This document shows, piece after piece, positions 15,286 to 26,285 of a stretch of DNA of 64,000 nucleotides (the stretch's first letter is position 1; every line of letters begins with the position of its first letter). The notes under the pieces were generated by a model. The model ran no database searches. It was not told the origin of the DNA and saw only the letters and a program-made list of their open reading frames with translations. The stretch is taken from the NCBI GenBank assembly GCA_016931615.1, contig JAFGEL010000052.1, positions 19,834 to 83,833 of the forward strand. The letters run 5' to 3'. The translations under genes and the position numbers were made by a program. Origin of the DNA: Desulfuromonadales bacterium (lineage in GTDB: Bacteria > Desulfobacterota > Desulfuromonadia > Desulfuromonadales > Geopsychrobacteraceae).

Positions 15286-16914
15286 TCAGTTTCCGGCCAT
15301 AATCGCCGCGACATCAGCCTGAACTTCACCGATCGGCTTGATGTCAAAGTTCTCGACCAGGACTTTGGCAACATTGGGCGACAGGAAGGCCGGCAGTGTC
15401 GGGCCAAGGCGGATATGCTTGACTCCCAGCGACAACAGGGCCAGCAGAACAATCACCGCTTTCTGCTCATACCAGGCGATATCGTAGGAGATCGGCAGGT
15501 CGTTGATATCGTCTAGGCCAAAGACCTCTTTCAGTTGCAGGGCGATGTACGCCAGAGAATAGGAATCGTTACACTGACCGGCATCGAGAACCCGTGGGAT
15601 GCCGCCGATATCACCCAGGTCAAGTTTATTGTAACGATATTTGGCGCAGCCTGCGGTAAGAATCACCGTATCCTGAGGCAAAGCTTCAGCTACATCGGTA
15701 AAATAACTGCGCTCTTTATGACGTCCGTCACAACCGGCCATGACCACAAAACGCTTGATGGCGCCCGATTTGACGGCATCTATGACCTTATCGGCCAGTG
15801 CCATGACCTGGGTATGAGCAAAACCACCGACGATTTCACCGCTTTCAAGTTCAACCGGCGGAGCACAGGTTTTGGCCTGCTCGATAAGCGCGGAAAAATC
15901 TTTGCTGCCCCCCTCGACACGCTCGGGGATATGCTTTGCGCCAGGCCAACCCGCCATACCGGTGGTGTAGATGCGGTCACGGTAGGCGTCTTTGACCGGG
16001 GTGATGCAATTGGTCGTCATCAGGATCGGACCGTTGAATGAGGCAAATTCCTTATCCTGCAACCACCAGGCGTTACCATAGTTTCCGACGAAATGATCAT
16101 ACTTCTTAAACGCCGGGTAATAGTTTGCCGGCAGCATTTCGCTGTGGGTGTAGACATCGACACCGGTTCCCTCGGTCTGCTTCAGCAGTTCTTCCATATC
16201 CTTAAGATCATGGCCCGAAATCAGGATTCCCGGGTTGTTGCGTACCCCGAGATTCACGGTGGTGATTTCAGGGTTACCATAAGTCGAGGTATTGGCCTCA
16301 TCAAGCAGAGCCATGGCGGTTACGGCAACCTCACCGCACTTCAGAACCTGGCCGACCATTTCATCAACGCTCAATTCGCGGGTGGTATTGGCCAGGGCAG
16401 AAATCATGAAACTGTAGATTTCACCTTTCTGGTAACCGAGAACCGCAGCATGATCGGTATAGGCGGCCATGCCTTTGAGACCGTAAATCAACAACTCACG
16501 CAGAGAACGAACATCTTCATTCGGCTGGGACAACACCCCGACTTCGGCAGCCTTGACGGCATATTCAGCCGCACTGCCGTTCCAGTTGACGACATCGGCG
16601 TCACTGCTGAACCCGATGGCCAGCTTCAGACCGTCACGTTTGGCGATGGTCTCCTTGATCAGGGCCACGAACCGCTCGTTGTCAAAATTGGCATTGGTGA
16701 TCGTCGCAAACAGGGCCTCACAGATAAAACGACCCACGGCATCATCCAACTTCCCCTGTTTATCAGCTTCCTCGGCGACCACGGCGAGACCTTTAAGGGT
16801 ATAAACCAGAAGATCCTGTAACCCGGCGGTATCCTCTTTTTTGCCGCAGACCCCGGCGATGGTACACCCGGTTCCTTTGGCCGCTTCCTGACACTGAAAA
16901 CAAAACATGCTCAT
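15286..16914 (-). CDS. hcp: Hydroxylamine reductase / hybrid cluster protein
   Basis: [26 protein letters not shown]-terminal cluster; [73 protein letters not shown]. Confidence 0.97.
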
Positions 16915-17169: not shown

Positions 17170-18402
17170 ATGTCAAGCGTGACACTGCATAAAGATATGA
17201 CCATCAAAACTATTCTGGAACATTGGCCGGAAACGCTTGACGTATTCGTCGCCAACGGATTTGAAAATTTTCGTGACAAAAAACAGCGCAATGCCGTAGC
17301 TGCTTATTTAAAGTTGGAGCGTGCCGCCAAAACCAAGAATTACGATCTTGATAACTTCATGGGTTTGTTACAGGAAAAAATCGACGAACAGCTGAACCTG
17401 GCTGACGTCACCATGAAAAAAACTCGCAATAACGGCTCTGACGTCACGGTCACCGGGCTGCTCCCCTGCCCGGTTCGGCTGCCGCTGTTGGAGGGGTTTG
17501 ATAAATTTATTGAAAGCTATACACAAAAAACCGGTAACACGGTCAGCTACAAGCTGGAAGCCGCGTCCGTAGGGGCCGACTGGATCGAAGAAAACATAAA
17601 AAACATTGAAAACCCGGCGGAACTGCCCGACATATTTTTATCTGCCGGTTTCGAAACTTTTTTTGACCAGAAGACTATCGGCCGGTTCAAGGAAATGTCT
17701 GTTTTCACCGACTTGACTGGAGACACTGTCAACAGCGATTTTTCCGCCATCGATATCAGGGACCCTAAAAAGGACTATTCCATTATCGCCGCTGTCCCGG
17801 CTGTCTTCATGGTCAATCATGATGTCCGTGGCGATTTGCCGGTTCCACGCCGCTGGGCCGATCTGCTTGAACCGGAATTTGAACAAAAAGTCGCCCTGCC
17901 GGTGGGTGATTTCGACCTGTTCAATGCCATCCTGCTGGCTCTCCACCAGGAACATGGGAACGAGGGCATTGAAAAACTCGGGCGGTGCATGCTGAAGTCG
18001 ATGCATCCGTCACAAATGGTCAAGAATGCGAAACGGGTCGCCGAAGAAAAACCCTATGTCACGATCATGCCCTATTTCTTCACCAAAATGGCACGCATGG
18101 TCAAGAGTCTGGAAATTGTCTGGCCGGATGATGGCGCCATCGTCAGCCCGATCTTCATGCTCACCAAACATGTCAGCGTTGACAGGACTGCGCCGATTGC
18201 CGAATTCCTTTCAGGCAAAGCTGTCGGCGAGATTCTGGCTCAAAAAGGCCTGTTCCCGTCGCTTCATCCTGAGGTGGACAATCAACTTAATTTTGCCCAC
18301 CCGTGGAAGTGGATCGGCTGGGATTATATTTATCAGAACGACATCGGAGAGTTAATCAGACAGACCAACCAGGTGTTTGAAAACTCAATGAATGCAGCTT
18401 AA
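17170..18402 (+). CDS. DUF1858-like N-terminal domain fused to a periplasmic-binding-protein-like domain, no signal peptide
   Basis: KDMTIKTILEHWPETLDVFVANGFENF resembles DUF1858; then GLLPCPVRLPLLEGFDKFIESYTQKTG...PDIFLSAGFETFF... resembles a solute-binding fold. No hydrophobic leader. Confidence 0.65.
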   Translation: MSSVTLHKDMTIKTILEHWPETLDVFVANGFENFRDKKQRNAVAAYLKLERAAKTKNYDLDNFMGLLQEKIDEQLNLADVTMKKTRNNGSDVTVTGLLPCPVRLPLLEGFDKFIESYTQKTGNTVSYKLEAASVGADWIEENIKNIENPAELPDIFLSAGFETFFDQKTIGRFKEMSVFTDLTGDTVNSDFSAIDIRDPKKDYSIIAAVPAVFMVNHDVRGDLPVPRRWADLLEPEFEQKVALPVGDFDLFNAILLALHQEHGNEGIEKLGRCMLKSMHPSQMVKNAKRVAEEKPYVTIMPYFFTKMARMVKSLEIVWPDDGAIVSPIFMLTKHVSVDRTAPIAEFLSGKAVGEILAQKGLFPSLHPEVDNQLNFAHPWKWIGWDYIYQNDIGELIRQTNQVFENSMNAA

Positions 18403-18413
18403 AGGATCAAACC

Positions 18414-19097
18414 ATGCGATTCCTGACCATTTCCGGCCCACCGTCGTCCGGCAAAACATCCGTTATTCTACGGGTCATCGAAGCATTACAGTTGCGTGAA
18501 AAGAAAATTGGCGTCATAAAATTCGACTGCCTGCTGACAGATGACGACAAACGCTATGCCGAAAAAGGAGTGCTGGTCCAGAAAGGGTTGTCCGGCGCGC
18601 TCTGTCCTGACCACTACTTTGTCAGCAACATCGAATCATGTGTCACCTGGGGGCACGAAAACGGCTGCGAATACCTGATCAGCGAAAGTGCCGGACTCTG
18701 CAACCGCTGTTCACCGCACATCAATGAAATCACCGCCGTCTGTGTGATTGATAACCTCAGCGGCATCAACACGCCACGTAAAATCGGACCGATGCTGAAA
18801 TCGGCGGATATTGTCGTCATCACCAAAGGCGATATTGTTTCCCAAGCCGAACGCGAAGTCTTTGCTTCACGGGTGAAACAGGTGAATCCAGGCGCGATCA
18901 TTATGCATGTCAACGGAATTACCGGGCAGGGCGCCTTTGAGCTGACCAGCCTTTTCGAAGAGGCCTCGGACATTGAAACGCTGAAAGGCAAAACCCTGCG
19001 TTTCTCCATGCCTTCGGCACTCTGCTCCTACTGCCTGGGAGAAACCCGCATCGGTGAAGAACACCAGACCGGTAACATCAGAAAGATGGATATCTGA
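18414..19097 (+). CDS. P-loop GTPase of HypB/UreG/CooC-like metallochaperone type with CxxC motifs
   Basis: FLTISGPPSSGKTSVILRVIEAL Walker A; VVITKGDIV as NKxD-like; CNRCSPH and CSYCLGE cysteine pairs. Confidence 0.7.
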   Translation: MRFLTISGPPSSGKTSVILRVIEALQLREKKIGVIKFDCLLTDDDKRYAEKGVLVQKGLSGALCPDHYFVSNIESCVTWGHENGCEYLISESAGLCNRCSPHINEITAVCVIDNLSGINTPRKIGPMLKSADIVVITKGDIVSQAEREVFASRVKQVNPGAIIMHVNGITGQGAFELTSLFEEASDIETLKGKTLRFSMPSALCSYCLGETRIGEEHQTGNIRKMDI

Positions 19098-19100
19098 ACG

Positions 19101-20099
19101 ATGAAAGCGACATCTCTTTATCATAAACCGCTGGCTGTCACCCTTGAAGAGCACCCTTATATTGAAGATTTTCTGTCTTCTTTCGGCCTCGAAATTCAGC
19201 CGACAACGACAAGTCTGGAAGAGTATCTGGACACACTTGATCCTGATCTGCTGGAAGATCTCGGAATCAGTTCTGAACAGCTGCGCAAGTCTCTCGACGA
19301 TTTCCTTGCAGGTATGCTGGCGTTGCAGAGCCCACTGGATAAAGTCGAGTCATTGACCATCATCGGTGGTCGGGATAAGACGGGACGTCCGGAGCACATT
19401 GAACTGACCCTGAGACCGGGGGAAGTGGTCTGCATCGTCGGCCCGACCGGCTCCGGCAAAAGCCGTCTTTTGGCAGACATTGAGTGGGTGGCACAGGGGG
19501 ACACACCTACCGGTCGAAAAATTCTCATCAATGATCAGGTCCCGGACAGCAAATGGCGTTTTTCCACTGAGCATAAGCTGGTGGCCCAGCTTTCACAGAA
19601 CATGAACTTTGTCATGGATCTGTCGGCAGAAGAATTCATCCGCATGCATGCTGAAAGCCGCCTGGTTACGAACCCGGAAGAGAAAATCGCCCAGATCCTG
19701 GAACAGGCTAACGAGCTGGCCGGAGAGAGGTTCAGCCCGAACACGCCGGTAACCTCCTTAAGCGGTGGACAGTCGCGTGCACTGATGATTGCCGACATGG
19801 CCATCTTAAGCAAATCCCCGATCGCCCTGATCGATGAAATAGAGAATGCCGGCATCGATCGCAAAAAAGCGCTGGACCTCCTGGTAAAAGAAGAAAAGAT
19901 CATCCTTATGGCTACCCATGATCCGATTCTGGCCTTGATGGGTGACCGGCGTCTGGTTATTCGCAACGGCGGTATCGACAAGATCATAGAATCGAGTCCA
20001 GCTGAGCGGAAAAACCTGATCGCCCTGGAAGAACTCGACAATAAACTGCTCGCGCTGCGAAATCGTATTCGCGGCGGAGAAACCCTGGAAAATATTTAA
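19101..20099 (+). CDS. ABC-type ATPase with N-terminal extension; no permease partner in the cluster
   Basis: GPTGSGKS Walker A, LSGGQ signature, ALIDEIENAG Walker B, ATHD switch; ~100 aa N-terminal extension including HPYIEDFLSSFGLEI. Confidence 0.85.
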   Translation: MKATSLYHKPLAVTLEEHPYIEDFLSSFGLEIQPTTTSLEEYLDTLDPDLLEDLGISSEQLRKSLDDFLAGMLALQSPLDKVESLTIIGGRDKTGRPEHIELTLRPGEVVCIVGPTGSGKSRLLADIEWVAQGDTPTGRKILINDQVPDSKWRFSTEHKLVAQLSQNMNFVMDLSAEEFIRMHAESRLVTNPEEKIAQILEQANELAGERFSPNTPVTSLSGGQSRALMIADMAILSKSPIALIDEIENAGIDRKKALDLLVKEEKIILMATHDPILALMGDRRLVIRNGGIDKIIESSPAERKNLIALEELDNKLLALRNRIRGGETLENI

Positions 20100-20110
20100 G
20101 GAGTGATAAA

Positions 20111-20353
20111 ATGCACGATGGTTGCAACGGACGTTTTGAAAATGGAAGTCTGATCGTCAATAAGTTAAGACAGATGGGCTTCAGCAGCATGTTGATGCCG
20201 ACCCCCCTGAAACTGACTTGTGAAGCTTGCGAGGCAACTTTTACCATGCATACCATGGAAAGCAGCTGCAGCAACTGCGGCATGGTCTATGGAGTGACCC
20301 CCTGCCATGCAACCGATCCGGCAAGTATTCAGCCGGCAGGGGTGGGTTACTAA
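20111..20353 (+). CDS. Small zinc-ribbon-like protein
   Basis: 80 aa; CEAC...CSNC pattern; close spacing (11 bp) after the ABC ATPase and GGAG RBS (taaggagtgataaaATG). Confidence 0.7.
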   Translation: MHDGCNGRFENGSLIVNKLRQMGFSSMLMPTPLKLTCEACEATFTMHTMESSCSNCGMVYGVTPCHATDPASIQPAGVGY

Positions 20354-20409: not shown

Positions 20410-21060
20410 TTATCGGGGGACCTGGGTGGCCAGCCCGGAAATAAAACTCCAAAGAATGTCTTTCAGGTCGCTTCCGAAGTCATTAAATTTTATCCCGACA
20501 CTGTGTTTGCCACCTACCGGGTCTTTACCCTTCTGAGTCCAGCAGACGGTTCCATCCAGGGTAAAAATATCATCCTGATCAGGCAGCGAAAACTCAACGG
20601 CAATCCCCCCCCCAACCCGTGGCAGAGAATAGGAAGAGGCAATTTCCAAACAGGCTCCTTCCATACTCAGGTTAATAAAGCTTCCGTGGCATTGCACTTT
20701 GTTGTAAAGAATCCGGGTGACAACCTGAGACTCAAACTGATAACGAAAATGATCACGGGCCCCGGTCATCATCCCCTGTAGAATCGCCAGAAACTGCTCA
20801 ATGCTGCGTTTACTCTCATTTGAAGCTGAGGCATTGGCAAATAAAGCGTTGCGCTCATCAATCACCTCGTCAAGCAGTTTACGATAACGAAAAAAACGTT
20901 TCAGTAAATCACTTCTATCGAAGGTGAAACCGTTGGACGAAACCAGGACATTCTTAACCCGAACCTGTGCTGAACAGTGCTCGCATTGAATCGTATCGAT
21001 TTCCGCAAGCAGAGCTGAGCTGATATATTTGTCACATTCCGGGCATTTCATAATCAACAT
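20410..21060 (-). CDS. PilZ-domain protein with N-terminal zinc ribbon
   Basis: CPEC...CEHC ribbon; HFRYQFESQVVTRI ... FINLSMEGACLEI (N/DxSxxG) PilZ signature. Confidence 0.75.
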   Translation of the reverse strand: MLIMKCPECDKYISSALLAEIDTIQCEHCSAQVRVKNVLVSSNGFTFDRSDLLKRFFRYRKLLDEVIDERNALFANASASNESKRSIEQFLAILQGMMTGARDHFRYQFESQVVTRILYNKVQCHGSFINLSMEGACLEIASSYSLPRVGGGIAVEFSLPDQDDIFTLDGTVCWTQKGKDPVGGKHSVGIKFNDFGSDLKDILWSFISGLATQVPR

Positions 21061-21090: not shown

Positions 21091-22230
21091 TTAGCGTCCT
21101 GCCTCCAGGCCGAAATCGTTGTGAAAAACCTCCTGATCCCGATAACGATCTCTGATCTTGAGAATATCGTCCAGATGCTCTACAAACAATTCGACCATCA
21201 GCGGCTCAAAATGTTGGCCGGATTCCTCCTTCAAGATCGCGACCGCTTTATCCACCGGCCAGGCCTGTTTGTAAGGACGTTCCGAGGTCAAAGCGTCAAA
21301 AACATCGCTGATTGCCGCGATACGTGCCGCAATCGGAATTGCATCACCGACCAAACCATGCGGATAACCGCTACCATCCCATTTTTCGTGATGGTAGAGT
21401 GCTGTTTCCCGTGCCAGGGTGATCAGCCTGGAATCATGATCGCCGATAATTTTTGCCCCGATTTTCGGATGCTGTTTCATAACATCCCACTCTTCGCGGC
21501 TGAGCTTACCCGGTTTTAACAGGATGCTGTCAGGAATGCCGATTTTTCCGACGTCGTGCATAGTACTGGCATACAGCAACAATTCGGAAAATTCCGTCCC
21601 CAGACCACGTTTTTCCGCCAGAAGCTGACAAACATGACTCATTCTTTTGACATGCGCCCCGGTCTCATTGTCTCTCAACTCTCCGGCAGCGCCCAGCCTC
21701 TGAACTATTTCAAATTGGGTTTCCCGAATTTCTTTGGTCCGTTTCAGAACCTCGGATTCCATGAGATCGGCCCTCAGGACCTGGCGCGTATAGAACATGC
21801 GCGTATTGAGAGTATTTTCGATACGCAGGAGTACTTCCCAGTCCTCAAAAGGTTTGGTCAGGAAATCTTTGGCCCCGGCCGCCAAAGCCTGCTGCCGCGT
21901 ATCCTGATCGGTTTGCGCAGTCAGCACAATCACCGGCAGGAAATCATCTAAAATGATTTTTTCCAGCAGCTTGAGAACATCAATGCCCGACAGGCCCGGC
22001 ATGCGGATATCCAGCAGGACAAGATCGAAGTCGTGTTCCCGACAAAGCGGCATAACCTGTGTGGGATCGGTTGTGGAATAGATGTTGGAGTAATCTTCTT
22101 CTTCGAGGACAGCTTCCAACAAAGCAACATTCGCGGGGTTGTCATCGACAATCAGAATCTTGGCGTCATGAATATCGGCAAGTGCCGCGTGCACAACCAG
22201 ATCATCGAGATCGAACGCAGTGTTTATCAT
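21091..22230 (-). CDS. Response regulator with HD-GYP phosphodiesterase output domain
   Basis: REC (ILIVDDN, LVLLDIRMPG); HDVGKIGIPDSILLKPGKLSREEWDVMKQHP; HHEKWDGSGYPHGL. Confidence 0.95.
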   Translation of the reverse strand: MINTAFDLDDLVVHAALADIHDAKILIVDDNPANVALLEAVLEEEDYSNIYSTTDPTQVMPLCREHDFDLVLLDIRMPGLSGIDVLKLLEKIILDDFLPVIVLTAQTDQDTRQQALAAGAKDFLTKPFEDWEVLLRIENTLNTRMFYTRQVLRADLMESEVLKRTKEIRETQFEIVQRLGAAGELRDNETGAHVKRMSHVCQLLAEKRGLGTEFSELLLYASTMHDVGKIGIPDSILLKPGKLSREEWDVMKQHPKIGAKIIGDHDSRLITLARETALYHHEKWDGSGYPHGLVGDAIPIAARIAAISDVFDALTSERPYKQAWPVDKAVAILKEESGQHFEPLMVELFVEHLDDILKIRDRYRDQEVFHNDFGLEAGR

Positions 22231-25200
22231 TCTACCCCCAAAGTCTCTGTTAAAGTTTTCTTCAGCAGGTCAATCTTGACCGGCTTGGATAAATAACCAT
22301 TGAAACCGAATTTTTCTATTTTTTTCACAGTCTTTTCCATCGCATCCGCACTGACCACCACAACGGGAACAAATTCCGTCTCAGGCTGCGCTTTCAACTG
22401 TCGATAAACCTGAAATCCGTCTATGCCCGGCAAATTCAGATCAAGAAGAATAAGATCCGGAGTCCTGTTTATCGCTGCTTGAATTCCCGCTTCTCCACTG
22501 TCGGCGATTTCCAGGGTGAAACCACCGATATCATCGACAACTTCACGCATAAAACTGATATTTGTCGGGTTATCTTCGATATACAAGAGATGTTTCAAAT
22601 GTTCATCACTGCTTTCCGCTTTTTCAATCTCAGCGCCATTGTTCAGACTCGCCTCGACTTGCTCAAGAGGAACCTTTTTAGTACACAACGGCAAAACAAA
22701 CCAGAAACGACTCCCCTCTCCCAGCCGACTTTCAAAACCGATTTCTCCTCCCATATGCTCAACCAGCTGCTTCGTAATCGTCATGCCGATCCCCGTACCT
22801 TCAATCGCGTCGGGGTTATCCACCATCCTGGTAAAGGGCATAAAGACATCTTTATGCTTGTCTTCAGCAATGCCCAGGCCGTTGTCTGAAACAGCAAAAC
22901 GTAAGAATCCGGCATCTTCCAATGCGGTTGAAATCTCAACGGTACCGCCCTGATGGTTGTATTTGACCGCGTTGGACAACAGGTTGAGCAAAACCTGTTT
23001 GGTCCTCGTCTGATCAGCTCTGATGAAGGGAAAGTGATGGCCGGAACAACGATTGATAAGAGTAATCGATTTGTTGTCCGCCAAAGGTTGGGCGAGAGAA
23101 AGGCATTCCCTCAGAATCTGCTGAGGATCAACGGGCTCGAGGGAAAGAGTAAATTCCCCCGACTCGATACGTGCCAGGTCCAGAACTTCATTAATCAGCT
23201 GCAACAGGTGATCGCCTGCCGACAAGATCTGCTCCGCCATGTGGCGCTGTTTCTCCGTCAACGGATGTTTTTTACTCTTCAACATCAACTGCGAAAATCC
23301 GTTGATCGCATTAAGCGGAGTTCTCAGTTCATGGCTCATCCGTGACAGAAAGATTGATTTTGCCTGATTGGCGCTGACAGCCTGTTTCTGTGCTCTGCGT
23401 AATTCAGTAATATTCTCTTTGACGGCTGCGTAATTGGTAATCTCTCCATGCAGATTTTTGATCGGCACAATCAGCACATTCTCTTCGTAATGTTCGCCAT
23501 TTTTCTTTTTATTGACAAATTCGCCCTGCCAAACTTTACCGCGGCTAATCGTTTTCCATAATTGCGTAAATCTGGCGGCAGGGGTTTTTCCTGATTGCAG
23601 AATGCGTGGATTTTTACCGATAACTTCAGCAGAACGATAACCGGTGGTTTCTTCAAAGGCCGCATTGACGAATTCAATACGCCCTTCAGTATCCGTTATA
23701 ACGATACTATCGGGTGACTGCTCAATCACCAGTCTTAACTTACGGGTTTCTTCTTCAGCCTCCACCCGCGTCGTCACATCACGTGAATTGAGAATGTATG
23801 CTTCCGATCCGTCGTCCTGCTCAAATTTACGGATCAATGATTCCAATACGCGATACGACCCGTCAGGGGTGACAACCCTGTACCTCATCAAATCCATTGC
23901 TTGATATTTCGCGTAAAGCTCATGCATATCGAGATAGGTCATATCTTCCGGTTTGATCAGGTTACGAACATCCTGACCGATGACATCCGACGGGGAAAAC
24001 CCCAGAATACTCTCCGCCGAAGGGCTGGTGTAGGTGATCATTCCGGCAGCATCGACAATGGTGATGATATCGGAAATATTTTCGATCAGTCTGCGGAAAT
24101 GGCGCTCACTTTTGATCAGTGTCAACTGCGCTTTTTTACGCTTAAAAATCTGTTCTTCAAGTGCAGATGTCCGTTCTTTGACCTTATCTTCGAGCTGTTC
24201 CTTGGCCTCCAGAAGAGCTTTCTCAGCTTTCTTCTTTGCGGTCATATCGAGTGTATACTCAATCATCTGAATCAGCTTACCGGATGGATCAAAAACCGGA
24301 TAACCATGAACTTCAACAGTAATTTTTTCACCGTGGGAATTCGTATGCACATGTTCAAGAACAACCGGTTTTCCGGTTTTTTTAACGATCTGTAAATGAC
24401 ATGGATGTTCCTGTCTTGAGCAGGGCAGCAACTGGTGATGACTCAATGCATGACAGGTCATGGTCTCTTTTCCAACCGTCAGACCTGCAGCCGTATTGGC
24501 AAGCACAATTTCGTAATTGTCTGCATTGATGACGCAAAACGGGTGTCCCAGCGATTCAATGATATTGAGCAGAAAAGCCGCCTGATCCGCGACATGATCT
24601 TCAGCCTGTTTACGCTCGGCCACTTCTTTCTCCAGTTCCAGGGTACGAACCTGAACTTTTTTCTCCAGATTTTCGTTGGCAGCCACAAGTTCCAGCTGAT
24701 AGCCGTCCCTTTCATTCAGAATGCGGCGACTTGAGCGCAGAACGAAACTCCCCAGCAGCAGAATTAAACCGGCCATGACTATTCCTGAAGTGTTTTCCAC
24801 GCTGTTAAATCTGCGCACAAACCCGGCATGAATAGCATGAATACGCTCCATTTCCTGCTGACTCTCAAAATGTAACCGGTACGAATTTTCCAGAATCCGC
24901 ACGAAAAACGGCTCTATGCCTTTGTAATGCTGGCTGACTCTATTCACGGCTTCCGCAACAAGCTGTGCATCGCGTTTTTCAAACGCCTTGATTTTTAATT
25001 TTATCACTGCGGAAAATTGTTCAACGATCTGATCAAGGTCGGTTAATTTGGCCGTGAGCTCGATCAGCTGCAAATCTATTTTTTGGATTTGATAATTCTT
25101 GTAAGTCAGCTGCCGAGTAATGATCTCTTCACCGCCGAAGTTTACCGGATAAGATTCAACCCATTCGCCACCCTGATGTAAAACCTCCAGGGTACGATCA

Positions 25201-25487
25201 ACGTCATGTCTCAGCGTTTCAAAGCGTCTGAAAATTCGGTTCATTTCCGATGCACTGTTGACATTCGCCAGATCATGTATCTTGACGTTGATCTCAAACA
25301 GTTTCTTCTGCAGAACATGAGATATTTCGACTTTGATTTGTTCGTTTTTGACCAGGCCCTGCAAATAATTTTGGCGCTGTTCTAGCAAAATATTGCCGGC
25401 TTTCAAACCGGCCAAACTGAACAGAACAAAACCGACCAGTACGGTTATCTGTGCAATGATTGGTTGCTTGAGGTGTTTTAGAATCAT
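22227..25487 (-). CDS. Multi-PAS hybrid sensor histidine kinase
   Basis: Predicted membrane N-terminus, three PAS regions, MSHELRTPLNAINGFSQLML, HATPase, C-terminal REC (LILLDLNLPGIDGF); 4 bp ATGA overlap with the HD-GYP gene. Confidence 0.93.
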   Translation of the reverse strand: MILKHLKQPIIAQITVLVGFVLFSLAGLKAGNILLEQRQNYLQGLVKNEQIKVEISHVLQKKLFEINVKIHDLANVNSASEMNRIFRRFETLRHDVDRTLEVLHQGGEWVESYPVNFGGEEIITRQLTYKNYQIQKIDLQLIELTAKLTDLDQIVEQFSAVIKLKIKAFEKRDAQLVAEAVNRVSQHYKGIEPFFVRILENSYRLHFESQQEMERIHAIHAGFVRRFNSVENTSGIVMAGLILLLGSFVLRSSRRILNERDGYQLELVAANENLEKKVQVRTLELEKEVAERKQAEDHVADQAAFLLNIIESLGHPFCVINADNYEIVLANTAAGLTVGKETMTCHALSHHQLLPCSRQEHPCHLQIVKKTGKPVVLEHVHTNSHGEKITVEVHGYPVFDPSGKLIQMIEYTLDMTAKKKAEKALLEAKEQLEDKVKERTSALEEQIFKRKKAQLTLIKSERHFRRLIENISDIITIVDAAGMITYTSPSAESILGFSPSDVIGQDVRNLIKPEDMTYLDMHELYAKYQAMDLMRYRVVTPDGSYRVLESLIRKFEQDDGSEAYILNSRDVTTRVEAEEETRKLRLVIEQSPDSIVITDTEGRIEFVNAAFEETTGYRSAEVIGKNPRILQSGKTPAARFTQLWKTISRGKVWQGEFVNKKKNGEHYEENVLIVPIKNLHGEITNYAAVKENITELRRAQKQAVSANQAKSIFLSRMSHELRTPLNAINGFSQLMLKSKKHPLTEKQRHMAEQILSAGDHLLQLINEVLDLARIESGEFTLSLEPVDPQQILRECLSLAQPLADNKSITLINRCSGHHFPFIRADQTRTKQVLLNLLSNAVKYNHQGGTVEISTALEDAGFLRFAVSDNGLGIAEDKHKDVFMPFTRMVDNPDAIEGTGIGMTITKQLVEHMGGEIGFESRLGEGSRFWFVLPLCTKKVPLEQVEASLNNGAEIEKAESSDEHLKHLLYIEDNPTNISFMREVVDDIGGFTLEIADSGEAGIQAAINRTPDLILLDLNLPGIDGFQVYRQLKAQPETEFVPVVVVSADAMEKTVKKIEKFGFNGYLSKPVKIDLLKKTLTETLGVE

Positions 25488-25490
25488 GAT

Positions 25491-26285
25491 TTAATCTCTA
25501 AAACCGTAACGCTGAAAAATCTTCCGACCCGTTTCAGAGACAGAGAAATCCATAAACTTTGCCGCCAGTTCAGGATGCTGACTGTACTTCAACACGCTCA
25601 TCACCAGAGGCACCTTTTCCGCGGCGTCTTCAGTTAAGGGAATCAGATACATCTGATCGCGGTTTTCCGGGATAAAACCGACAGCTTTCCAGTTGACAAC
25701 CAGGTCGGCGTCTTTGTCCTTCAGCGCTTTGACCAGGCCTTTTGAATCGGTGGTCAGGTACAGAGCATTTTGCATCACGGCCTGGTAAATTCCGGCTTTC
25801 TCGAGTATTTTTTTTGTTTCGCGCCCAACAGCTCCTGACTTTTCGTTTCCGACAACAACATGAAGACTTTTGTCCACAAGCTGACTCAAATTCGCCTCAA
25901 GACCCTTGGGATTCCCCGGCTGAGAGAAAAAAGCGATCTGGTTATAACCGACTTCAACCTGGTCAAAAATCAAGCCCTGTTTCTCCAGGTTCCGGACATA
26001 ACTCTGGTCACCGGGAAAAAACAGGTCGCCGATTTTATTGACCCCGACCGAGCGCAACAGATGGCCCGAGCCGCCATAACTTATTTTTACCGTACAGTGT
26101 TCCCTCTCCTCGAACAGAGTCTTGATTTCAAGCAACGGCTTGATCATCGTCATACCGCTGTAAATCAGAATTTCCCTGCGGTCAGATCCCTGAGGATAGG
26201 GGTATTGCCGCATATCGCAACCTGAGAAGATGAAAAATGCTAAAAGAGCCGAAACCAAGCGCGCACAAAACATAAATATATCCAT
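25491..26285 (-). CDS. Substrate-binding lipoprotein (ModA/PstS-like)
   Basis: Lipobox FSGC; YGGSGHLLRSVGVNKIGDLFFPGDQSYV and KVPLVMSVLKYSQHPELAAKFMDF typical of molybdate/phosphate-type binding proteins. Confidence 0.8.
   Translation of the reverse strand: MDIFMFCARLVSALLAFFIFSGCDMRQYPYPQGSDRREILIYSGMTMIKPLLEIKTLFEEREHCTVKISYGGSGHLLRSVGVNKIGDLFFPGDQSYVRNLEKQGLIFDQVEVGYNQIAFFSQPGNPKGLEANLSQLVDKSLHVVVGNEKSGAVGRETKKILEKAGIYQAVMQNALYLTTDSKGLVKALKDKDADLVVNWKAVGFIPENRDQMYLIPLTEDAAEKVPLVMSVLKYSQHPELAAKFMDFSVSETGRKIFQRYGFRD

Follow-up and report, generated by a model that had tools for sequence, protein, structure and literature searches.

A permease-less ABC ATPase and GTPase cassette beside hcp: a candidate metal or Fe-S delivery and repair system of the nitric oxide regulon in anaerobic bacteria

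Introduction

What is the function of four tightly packed genes that lie divergent from hcp, the gene for the hybrid cluster protein (Hcp), in a Desulfuromonadales bacterium? The genes were found in a stretch of 64,000 nucleotides (assembly GCA_016931615.1, contig JAFGEL010000052.1, positions 19,834 to 83,833), hereafter called the window. They encode a solute-binding protein (SBP) with an N-terminal DUF1858 domain, a GTPase, an ATP-binding cassette (ABC) ATPase and a small zinc ribbon protein. Hcp and the response of strict anaerobes to nitric oxide (NO) are well known. An earlier interpretation made from the letters of the window only (the sequence-only reading) had proposed a soluble, NTP-driven machine for the maturation or repair of a metallocluster, possibly that of Hcp. 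We followed this up with profile searches, structure prediction and a survey of genomic neighbourhoods, and we consider it about an even chance that the cassette encodes a soluble, NTP-driven machine without a permease that belongs to the NO regulon and serves metal or Fe-S delivery or repair in the cytosol.

Composition of the cassette

The SBP showed Pfam matches to DUF1858 and SBP_bac_6 (E=1.6e-77). Its DUF1858 profile matched PDB entry 2fi0 significantly, and ScdA and 2k53 weakly. An AlphaFold2 model of the protein (mean pLDDT 84.9) had its nearest folds in P5PA and in the ferric-binding proteins FbpA, SfuA and FutA. We found no export signal in this SBP, with a peak hydropathy in the first 45 amino acids (aa) of 0.67 as compared to 2.54 for a periplasmic SBP encoded in the same window. 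Among 31 aligned SBPs the N-terminal hydropathy was likewise below that of periplasmic controls, one being borderline (1.82). Invariant features were Cys100, HPxQMxK (residues 279-285), FF304, WPxxG and WxGWD. The iron-binding tyrosine pair of Campylobacter FbpA aligned with Phe303-Phe304, of which Phe304 was invariant in one alignment (A3) and both residues in another (A4). In the model, Cys100 stands immediately after the first strand, which is where ligands are bound in such proteins, and HP280xxM283xK285 forms the start of a helix in the other lobe. Cys100, His279 and Met283 might meet in the cleft as candidate ligands. In two relatives DUF1858 and SBP are part of a single protein of 907-908 aa that also has DUF2249, hemerythrin and PAS domains (L043:8175-10898 and L044:1965-4691), an architecture that by its domain matches links the SBP to Fe-S-repair-type proteins.

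The GTPase matched the Pfam cobW/HypB/UreG family above the cut-off (E=6e-13) as well as UreG and HypB profiles. Its CPDH motif (residues 64-67) coincided in a profile alignment with the CPH metal motif of UreG, and the protein carries the Walker A, the [N/T]KxD (TKxD, 137-140) and the Cys/His motif at the CPH position that characterize the HypB/UreG-type superfamily. CPDH, both CxxC pairs (C96xxC99 and C204xxC207), Walker A and T/S-KxD were identical in all 138 GTPase homologues, down to about 36% identity. An identity as HypB itself was rejected, with 52 bits against the NCBIfam TIGR00073 cut-off of 121 bits.

The ABC ATPase (Pfam ABC_tran) retained every ATPase motif (alignment A5). Its N-terminal extension is, as judged by profile comparison, a second DUF1858-like domain: hhalign against the DUF1858 profile of the SBP gave a probability of 91% (E=1.1e-6), whereas controls reached at most 0.33%. 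A model of this domain was helical, with a weak top fold match to 2k53, not significant alone, and the same entry was matched weakly by the SBP profile through its DUF1858 part. A search of the PDB with the sequence profile of the ABC N-terminal domain gave nothing useful.

The zinc ribbon protein contains HDGC5, two CxxC motifs (37/40 and 53/56) and PC65, and its HxGC, CxxC and PC65 motifs were nearly invariant among homologues. HypA was the Pfam family most often matched by these zinc ribbons, weakly, in 23 of 25 members. The window protein is not identified as HypA (16.7 bits against a gathering cut-off of 28.9 bits), and a HypA-like N-terminal Met-His was dismissed as a family feature, as at least one homologue (L110) starts otherwise.

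The sequence-only reading had described four plus-strand genes with gaps of 11, 3 and 11 bp and a divergent hcp, a DUF1858-like protein with a solute-binding fold and no signal peptide, a HypB/CooC-like GTPase with two CxxC motifs and an 80 aa zinc ribbon, all of which agree with our results, including the HMM and structure checks; the invariant CPDH had gone unmentioned. It had also described an ABC ATPase with an extension of about 100 aa; ATPase and extension stand, the latter being corrected to the second DUF1858-like domain.

Distribution and nitric oxide context

At least 564 stretches were confirmed when 84,980 species genomes were scanned. Among the loci fetched, the SBP-GTPase-ABC core was present in at least 10 phyla of anaerobic bacteria, including Bacillota, Spirochaetota, Bacteroidota, Thermodesulfobacteriota, Deferribacterota, Cloacimonadota, Fusobacteriota and others. 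GTPase identity was 63-96% within the order (close group) and about 70% across phyla. Zinc ribbons and GTPase or ABC genes missed by open reading frame calling were re-checked with tblastn.

We designate loci of the hcp-linked kind as type-1 (hcp-type). Of the 52 type-1 loci that were fully flanked, 23 had hcp within 9.5 kb of the cassette; for a random position we estimate a frequency of less than 1%. Conservation in this many phyla together with the proximity of hcp indicates that the arrangement is not due to chance. Elsewhere the NO-type neighbours were nrfHA, fprA, ygbA, hemerythrin-PAS and cupin genes; for representatives of these the identity was verified with Pfam. Putative regulators were also found directly beside the cassette, namely Rrf2 genes with NsrR/IscR-like cysteines in Spirochaetota and Cloacimonadota and Crp/Fnr genes in Halanaerobium, Tepidibacter and others.

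We further screened for the HcpR motif TTGAC-N4-GTCAA (PMC1274295), relaxed to TTGAY-N4-RTCAA, and for the published HcpR2 motif GTAAC-N4-GTTAC with at most one mismatch, and computed expectations from the remainder of the same loci. Upstream of the SBP gene the relaxed HcpR motif was observed 40 times (0.38 expected) and the HcpR2 motif 29 times (1.9 expected), also where hcp was not adjacent. These counts are inflated by close relatives, but two different motifs in different phyla lead to the same answer. The 64-kb window contained three relaxed HcpR matches (0.43 expected), two of them in the hcp-SBP intergenic region 5' of the operon, as in an HcpR/NO regulon. In total, 73 of 94 non-duplicate type-1 loci had an NO-type neighbour or site, many of the others being short contigs.

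Membership in the NO-stress response is supported in several phyla by the neighbouring genes, the regulators beside the cassette and the HcpR sites, and the four genes apparently form an NO-induced operon of an HcpR/NsrR-type regulon. The nitrosative-stress link put forward in the sequence-only reading, and the co-occurrence with hcp that it had named as a check, were recovered in this survey. For the hcp-type cassette we found neither a conserved permease nor an export signal nor homologues characterized in another pathway, the three observations which that reading had named as speaking against it.

A paralogous cassette in nif clusters

Some relatives within the own order and class encoded a divergent cassette inside nif clusters, whose GTPase was 61-65% and whose SBP about 30% identical; the sequence-only reading had not noticed this paralogue. 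Cys100 and the HPxQMxK residues were kept in both hcp-type and nif-type SBPs. Locus L032 showed the order nifE, nifN, nifX, a ferredoxin gene, nifB, modABC, cassette and nifV; variants of this arrangement were found in L033, L034, L038, L136 and L138, and L036 had modABC only. Gene names in these loci, the cassette aside, come from reading of the sequences and from tblastn with those sequences as markers. In a GTPase tree every hcp-linked copy fell into one clade of 98 rows, with the nif/mod-type rows outside in separate clades of five rows (SH-aLRT 99) and two rows (98). One genome (G009) carried both types. This nif-embedded paralogue points to a role of the gene family in metallocluster or metal supply, to judge from gene context. 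The metallocluster theme of the sequence-only reading is supported by the nif/mod paralogues, the invariant metal-type motifs of the GTPase and the candidate soft ligands of the SBP.

Weighing the explanations

Since the cassette occurs in NO and nif contexts, has a metal-type GTPase and an SBP with a remodelled cleft, a delivery or repair machine is the simplest account. We infer that iron, or else a small fragment of the Fe-S or metal-thiolate kind, would be held in the SBP cleft, for which Cys100, His279 and Met283 are candidate ligands. Metal transfer would be under the control of GTP and would involve the HypA-like zinc ribbon as well as the GTPase with its CPDH and CxxC sites. The ABC ATPase might dock via its own DUF1858-like domain, a type of contact shared with the SBP, and its use of ATP would open or remodel either the SBP or the client and thereby release the load. 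The recipient may be an enzyme that NO has damaged or one that is newly made under NO, Hcp being a possible client, and the paralogous cassette may do an analogous job in nif/mod clusters.

Several observations weigh against this account. Among 237 sampled genomes of the own phylum, hcp was present in 169 and the GTPase in 12, all 12 with hcp, leaving 157 of the 169 hcp genomes without the GTPase. Elsewhere 37 of 41 cassette carriers had hcp, which was undetected in the other four, several of them draft genomes. The nif-type cassette was found in 5 of 35 nifB-bearing genomes (among 60 relatives) and is thus an accessory that is optional there. Its proposed role as a replacement of NifQ was rejected because NifQ is also present in four of these five genomes. 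The zinc ribbon lies 3' of the cassette in most loci and was undetected in 23 of 80, many of them from Bacillota, so it is not essential to the cassette. The ligands of solute-binding folds of this class also include organic compounds, namely P5PA, polyamines and sugar phosphates.

Divergent or co-directional hcp genes in many phyla, the two HcpR-type sites in the intergenic region shared by hcp and the SBP gene, and the presence of hcp in all own-phylum carriers might also be explained by a system dedicated to maturing or repairing the hybrid Fe-S-O cluster of Hcp, a reading that we consider unlikely. Given the high base rate of hcp, its presence in all 12 carriers argues only weakly for dependence. 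The large number of hcp genomes that lack the cassette indicates that Hcp does not need it in general and disfavours an obligate role in Hcp maturation; the cassette is not a general Hcp maturase. Many cassettes adjoin nrfHA, fprA or ygbA and not hcp, and the paralogue within nif clusters likewise speaks against a system dedicated to Hcp. Hcp may be one client of the cassette. Of the earlier proposal, the NO-stress, soluble and metallocluster themes hold, while a specific action on Hcp is not supported. Cytosolic capture of iron or dinitrosyl-iron products from NO-damaged proteins, as sequestration or salvage and with no insertion into a client, would fit the NO regulation, the FbpA-type fold with remodelled ligands and the relation of DUF1858 to Fe-S repair proteins, including its fusion to hemerythrin in relatives. 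Two NTPases exceed the needs of a buffer, however, and the nif/mod paralogues suggest that an assembly pathway is being supplied, and we regard this alternative as distinctly improbable.

A cytosolic SBP without a permease that is strongly co-regulated with stress genes could also be the sensor for a small molecule, with the NTPases relaying the signal. To this we give a slim chance, as the conserved core contains no output domain or DNA-binding protein and the GTPase retains its invariant metal-type motifs. That the cassette is an ordinary ABC importer with a permease encoded elsewhere is hardly credible despite the SBP and ABC folds and the importer operons beside some distant relatives. The SBP lacks an export signal, no permease recurred in type-1 neighbourhoods, and each of the importers encoded nearby comes with a periplasmic SBP, a permease and an ATPase of its own. 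Classical ABC import, which calls for an exported SBP and a co-conserved permease, was accordingly rejected, and the soluble nature assumed in the sequence-only reading was corroborated for the hcp-type clade.

Relation to known systems

The delivery or repair machine favoured here has similarities to several known systems. The GTPase belongs to the same superfamily as those of the HypA/HypB and UreG nickel-insertion systems and has a small zinc ribbon partner reminiscent of HypA, whereas it scores far under the HypB and UreG cut-offs, has extra CxxC pairs, is partnered by an SBP and an ABC ATPase and is found in the context of NO stress or nif rather than hydrogenase or urease. With the periplasmic ferric-binding proteins FbpA, FutA and SfuA the SBP shares the solute-binding fold, but it is cytosolic, carries DUF1858, has no permease and shows invariant Phe in place of the tandem iron-binding tyrosines, with Cys100 and HPxQMxK instead; an assignment to FbpA was rejected for the missing tyrosines. 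Like the ScdA/YtfE (RIC) Fe-S repair proteins, it combines a related N-terminal helical domain (by a weak profile match) with an NO-stress setting and has relatives with DUF1858-SBP-hemerythrin fusions, whereas the operon is without a hemerythrin di-iron domain and has two NTPases and a solute-binding fold. The window SBP has DUF1858 and no hemerythrin domain, and was not assigned to this family.

SufBCD is an Fe-S assembly system with a soluble ABC ATPase and no membrane domains, as found here in a metallocluster setting; the cassette has no SufB/SufD-like partner and differs in its third and fourth components. The paralogous cassette is embedded among the genes of the nitrogenase cofactor pathway (NifB, NifEN, NifQ) in relatives, whereas the cassette has no homology to these proteins, is optional even in nif genomes and is hcp-linked in the window. 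The cassette falls outside HypB, HypA, ABC importers, FbpA and ScdA/YtfE, and we know of no described counterpart in which a permease-less ABC ATPase and a GTPase of the metallochaperone class are combined with a solute-binding fold in the cytosol. No description was found in open-access literature on DUF1858 with Hcp, nitrogenase or ABC transporters or on Hcp maturation, and key terms gave no cassette in open-access papers on C. difficile, A. acetoxydans, P. carbinolicus and D. desulfuricans. The system is new as a combination and is made of known domain types; it would count as a variant if all metallochaperone GTPase systems were taken as one kind.

Distant variants

Relatives of the cassette in L128-L130 adjoin an NRAMP-type metal transporter and a gene reading as hypE. 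More distant loci (L132-L134, L143 and L148-L153; GTPase 45-53% identical) encode a GTPase, an ABC ATPase without the N-terminal domain and a shorter SBP beside genes that read as methyltransferase, radical-SAM and FecBCD- or TauABC-like importer genes, with a weak ygbA match and a Crp-like gene in L152 and L153. In a Bacillota variant (L135 and L155-L168; GTPase 36-41% identical) the ABC ATPase and GTPase occur with a protein of about 220 aa containing CGLCGxxSCKxFL (4Fe-4S-like) and no SBP, and L155 has genes reading as Mrp/NBP35-like ATPase, NifX-like and NifU-like next to it.

Layout of the window

Coordinates are given in Table 1. Shine-Dalgarno-like sequences were read 5' of three of the four cluster genes, and the intergenic region is common to hcp and the SBP gene.

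Table 1. Features of the cassette and its surroundings (window positions).
Feature	Position	Strand	Length or residues	Annotation and basis
SBP gene (gene 1)	17170..18402	+	410 aa	DUF1858 and FbpA-type solute-binding fold, cytosolic; Pfam, alignments, AlphaFold2, PDB fold search
DUF1858 domain of SBP	17188..17361	+	residues 7-64	PF08984, E=4e-15
GTPase gene (gene 2)	18414..19097	+	227 aa	HypB/UreG-like SIMIBI GTPase; Pfam, profile matches, motif invariance
ABC ATPase gene (gene 3)	19101..20099	+	332 aa	Soluble, without partner permease; ABC_tran E=1e-16, alignment, neighbourhood
N-terminal extension of ABC ATPase	19101..19355	+	residues 1-85	Second DUF1858-like domain by hhalign
Zinc-ribbon gene (gene 4)	20111..20353	+	80 aa	HypA-like; conservation, Pfam HypA sub-threshold
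hcp (hybrid cluster protein), divergent	15286..16911	-		ATG at 16911; possible client; NCBIfam hydroxylamine reductase PRK05290, 852 bits; Prismane 1.8e-180
Candidate HcpR/FNR-type site TTGATCTAGGTCAA	16992..17005	+		hcp-SBP intergenic region; published consensus PMC1274295
Candidate HcpR/FNR-type site TTGATCTGCATCAA	17039..17052	+		hcp-SBP intergenic region

A PilZ protein with a zinc-ribbon-like N-terminal part (20410-21060, minus strand) adjoins the cassette in ten Desulfuromonadia loci. Next to it on the same strand lies a conserved block (21091-26285) that encodes an exported SBP_bac_11 protein without a neighbouring permease, a PAS hybrid kinase of 1086 aa and a response regulator reading as HD-GYP, possibly a binding-protein-fed sensor. 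The third HcpR/FNR-type match of the window (24112-24125) lies inside the kinase gene and is probably due to chance. The assembly of the window contains a second hcp and cassette locus (L031, G000:C67:15000-34000), with identities to the window of 80% for SBP, 96% for GTPase and 89% for Hcp, and two nifB genes on other contigs. Either a true duplication or a mixed assembly would account for these findings.

Implications

A wider and more tentative idea, which we would put clearly below even, is that the cassette belongs to a superfamily of permease-less cytosolic ABC and GTPase machines for loading metalloclusters, in which GTPase and ABC are constant and the third partner is either a solute-binding-fold or a 4Fe-4S protein. 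Its nif/mod branch would feed nitrogenase cofactor assembly, and its hcp-linked branch would rebuild NO-damaged clusters, the SBP holding an Fe-S or metal intermediate via Cys100, His279 and Met283. The operon appears in HcpR/NsrR-type regulons across many phyla, and the nif-embedded paralogues tie defence against nitrosative stress to nitrogenase cofactor biology and offer two independent genetic read-outs of the same biochemistry. If true, the cassette would represent a new way of moving metals or clusters inside cells.

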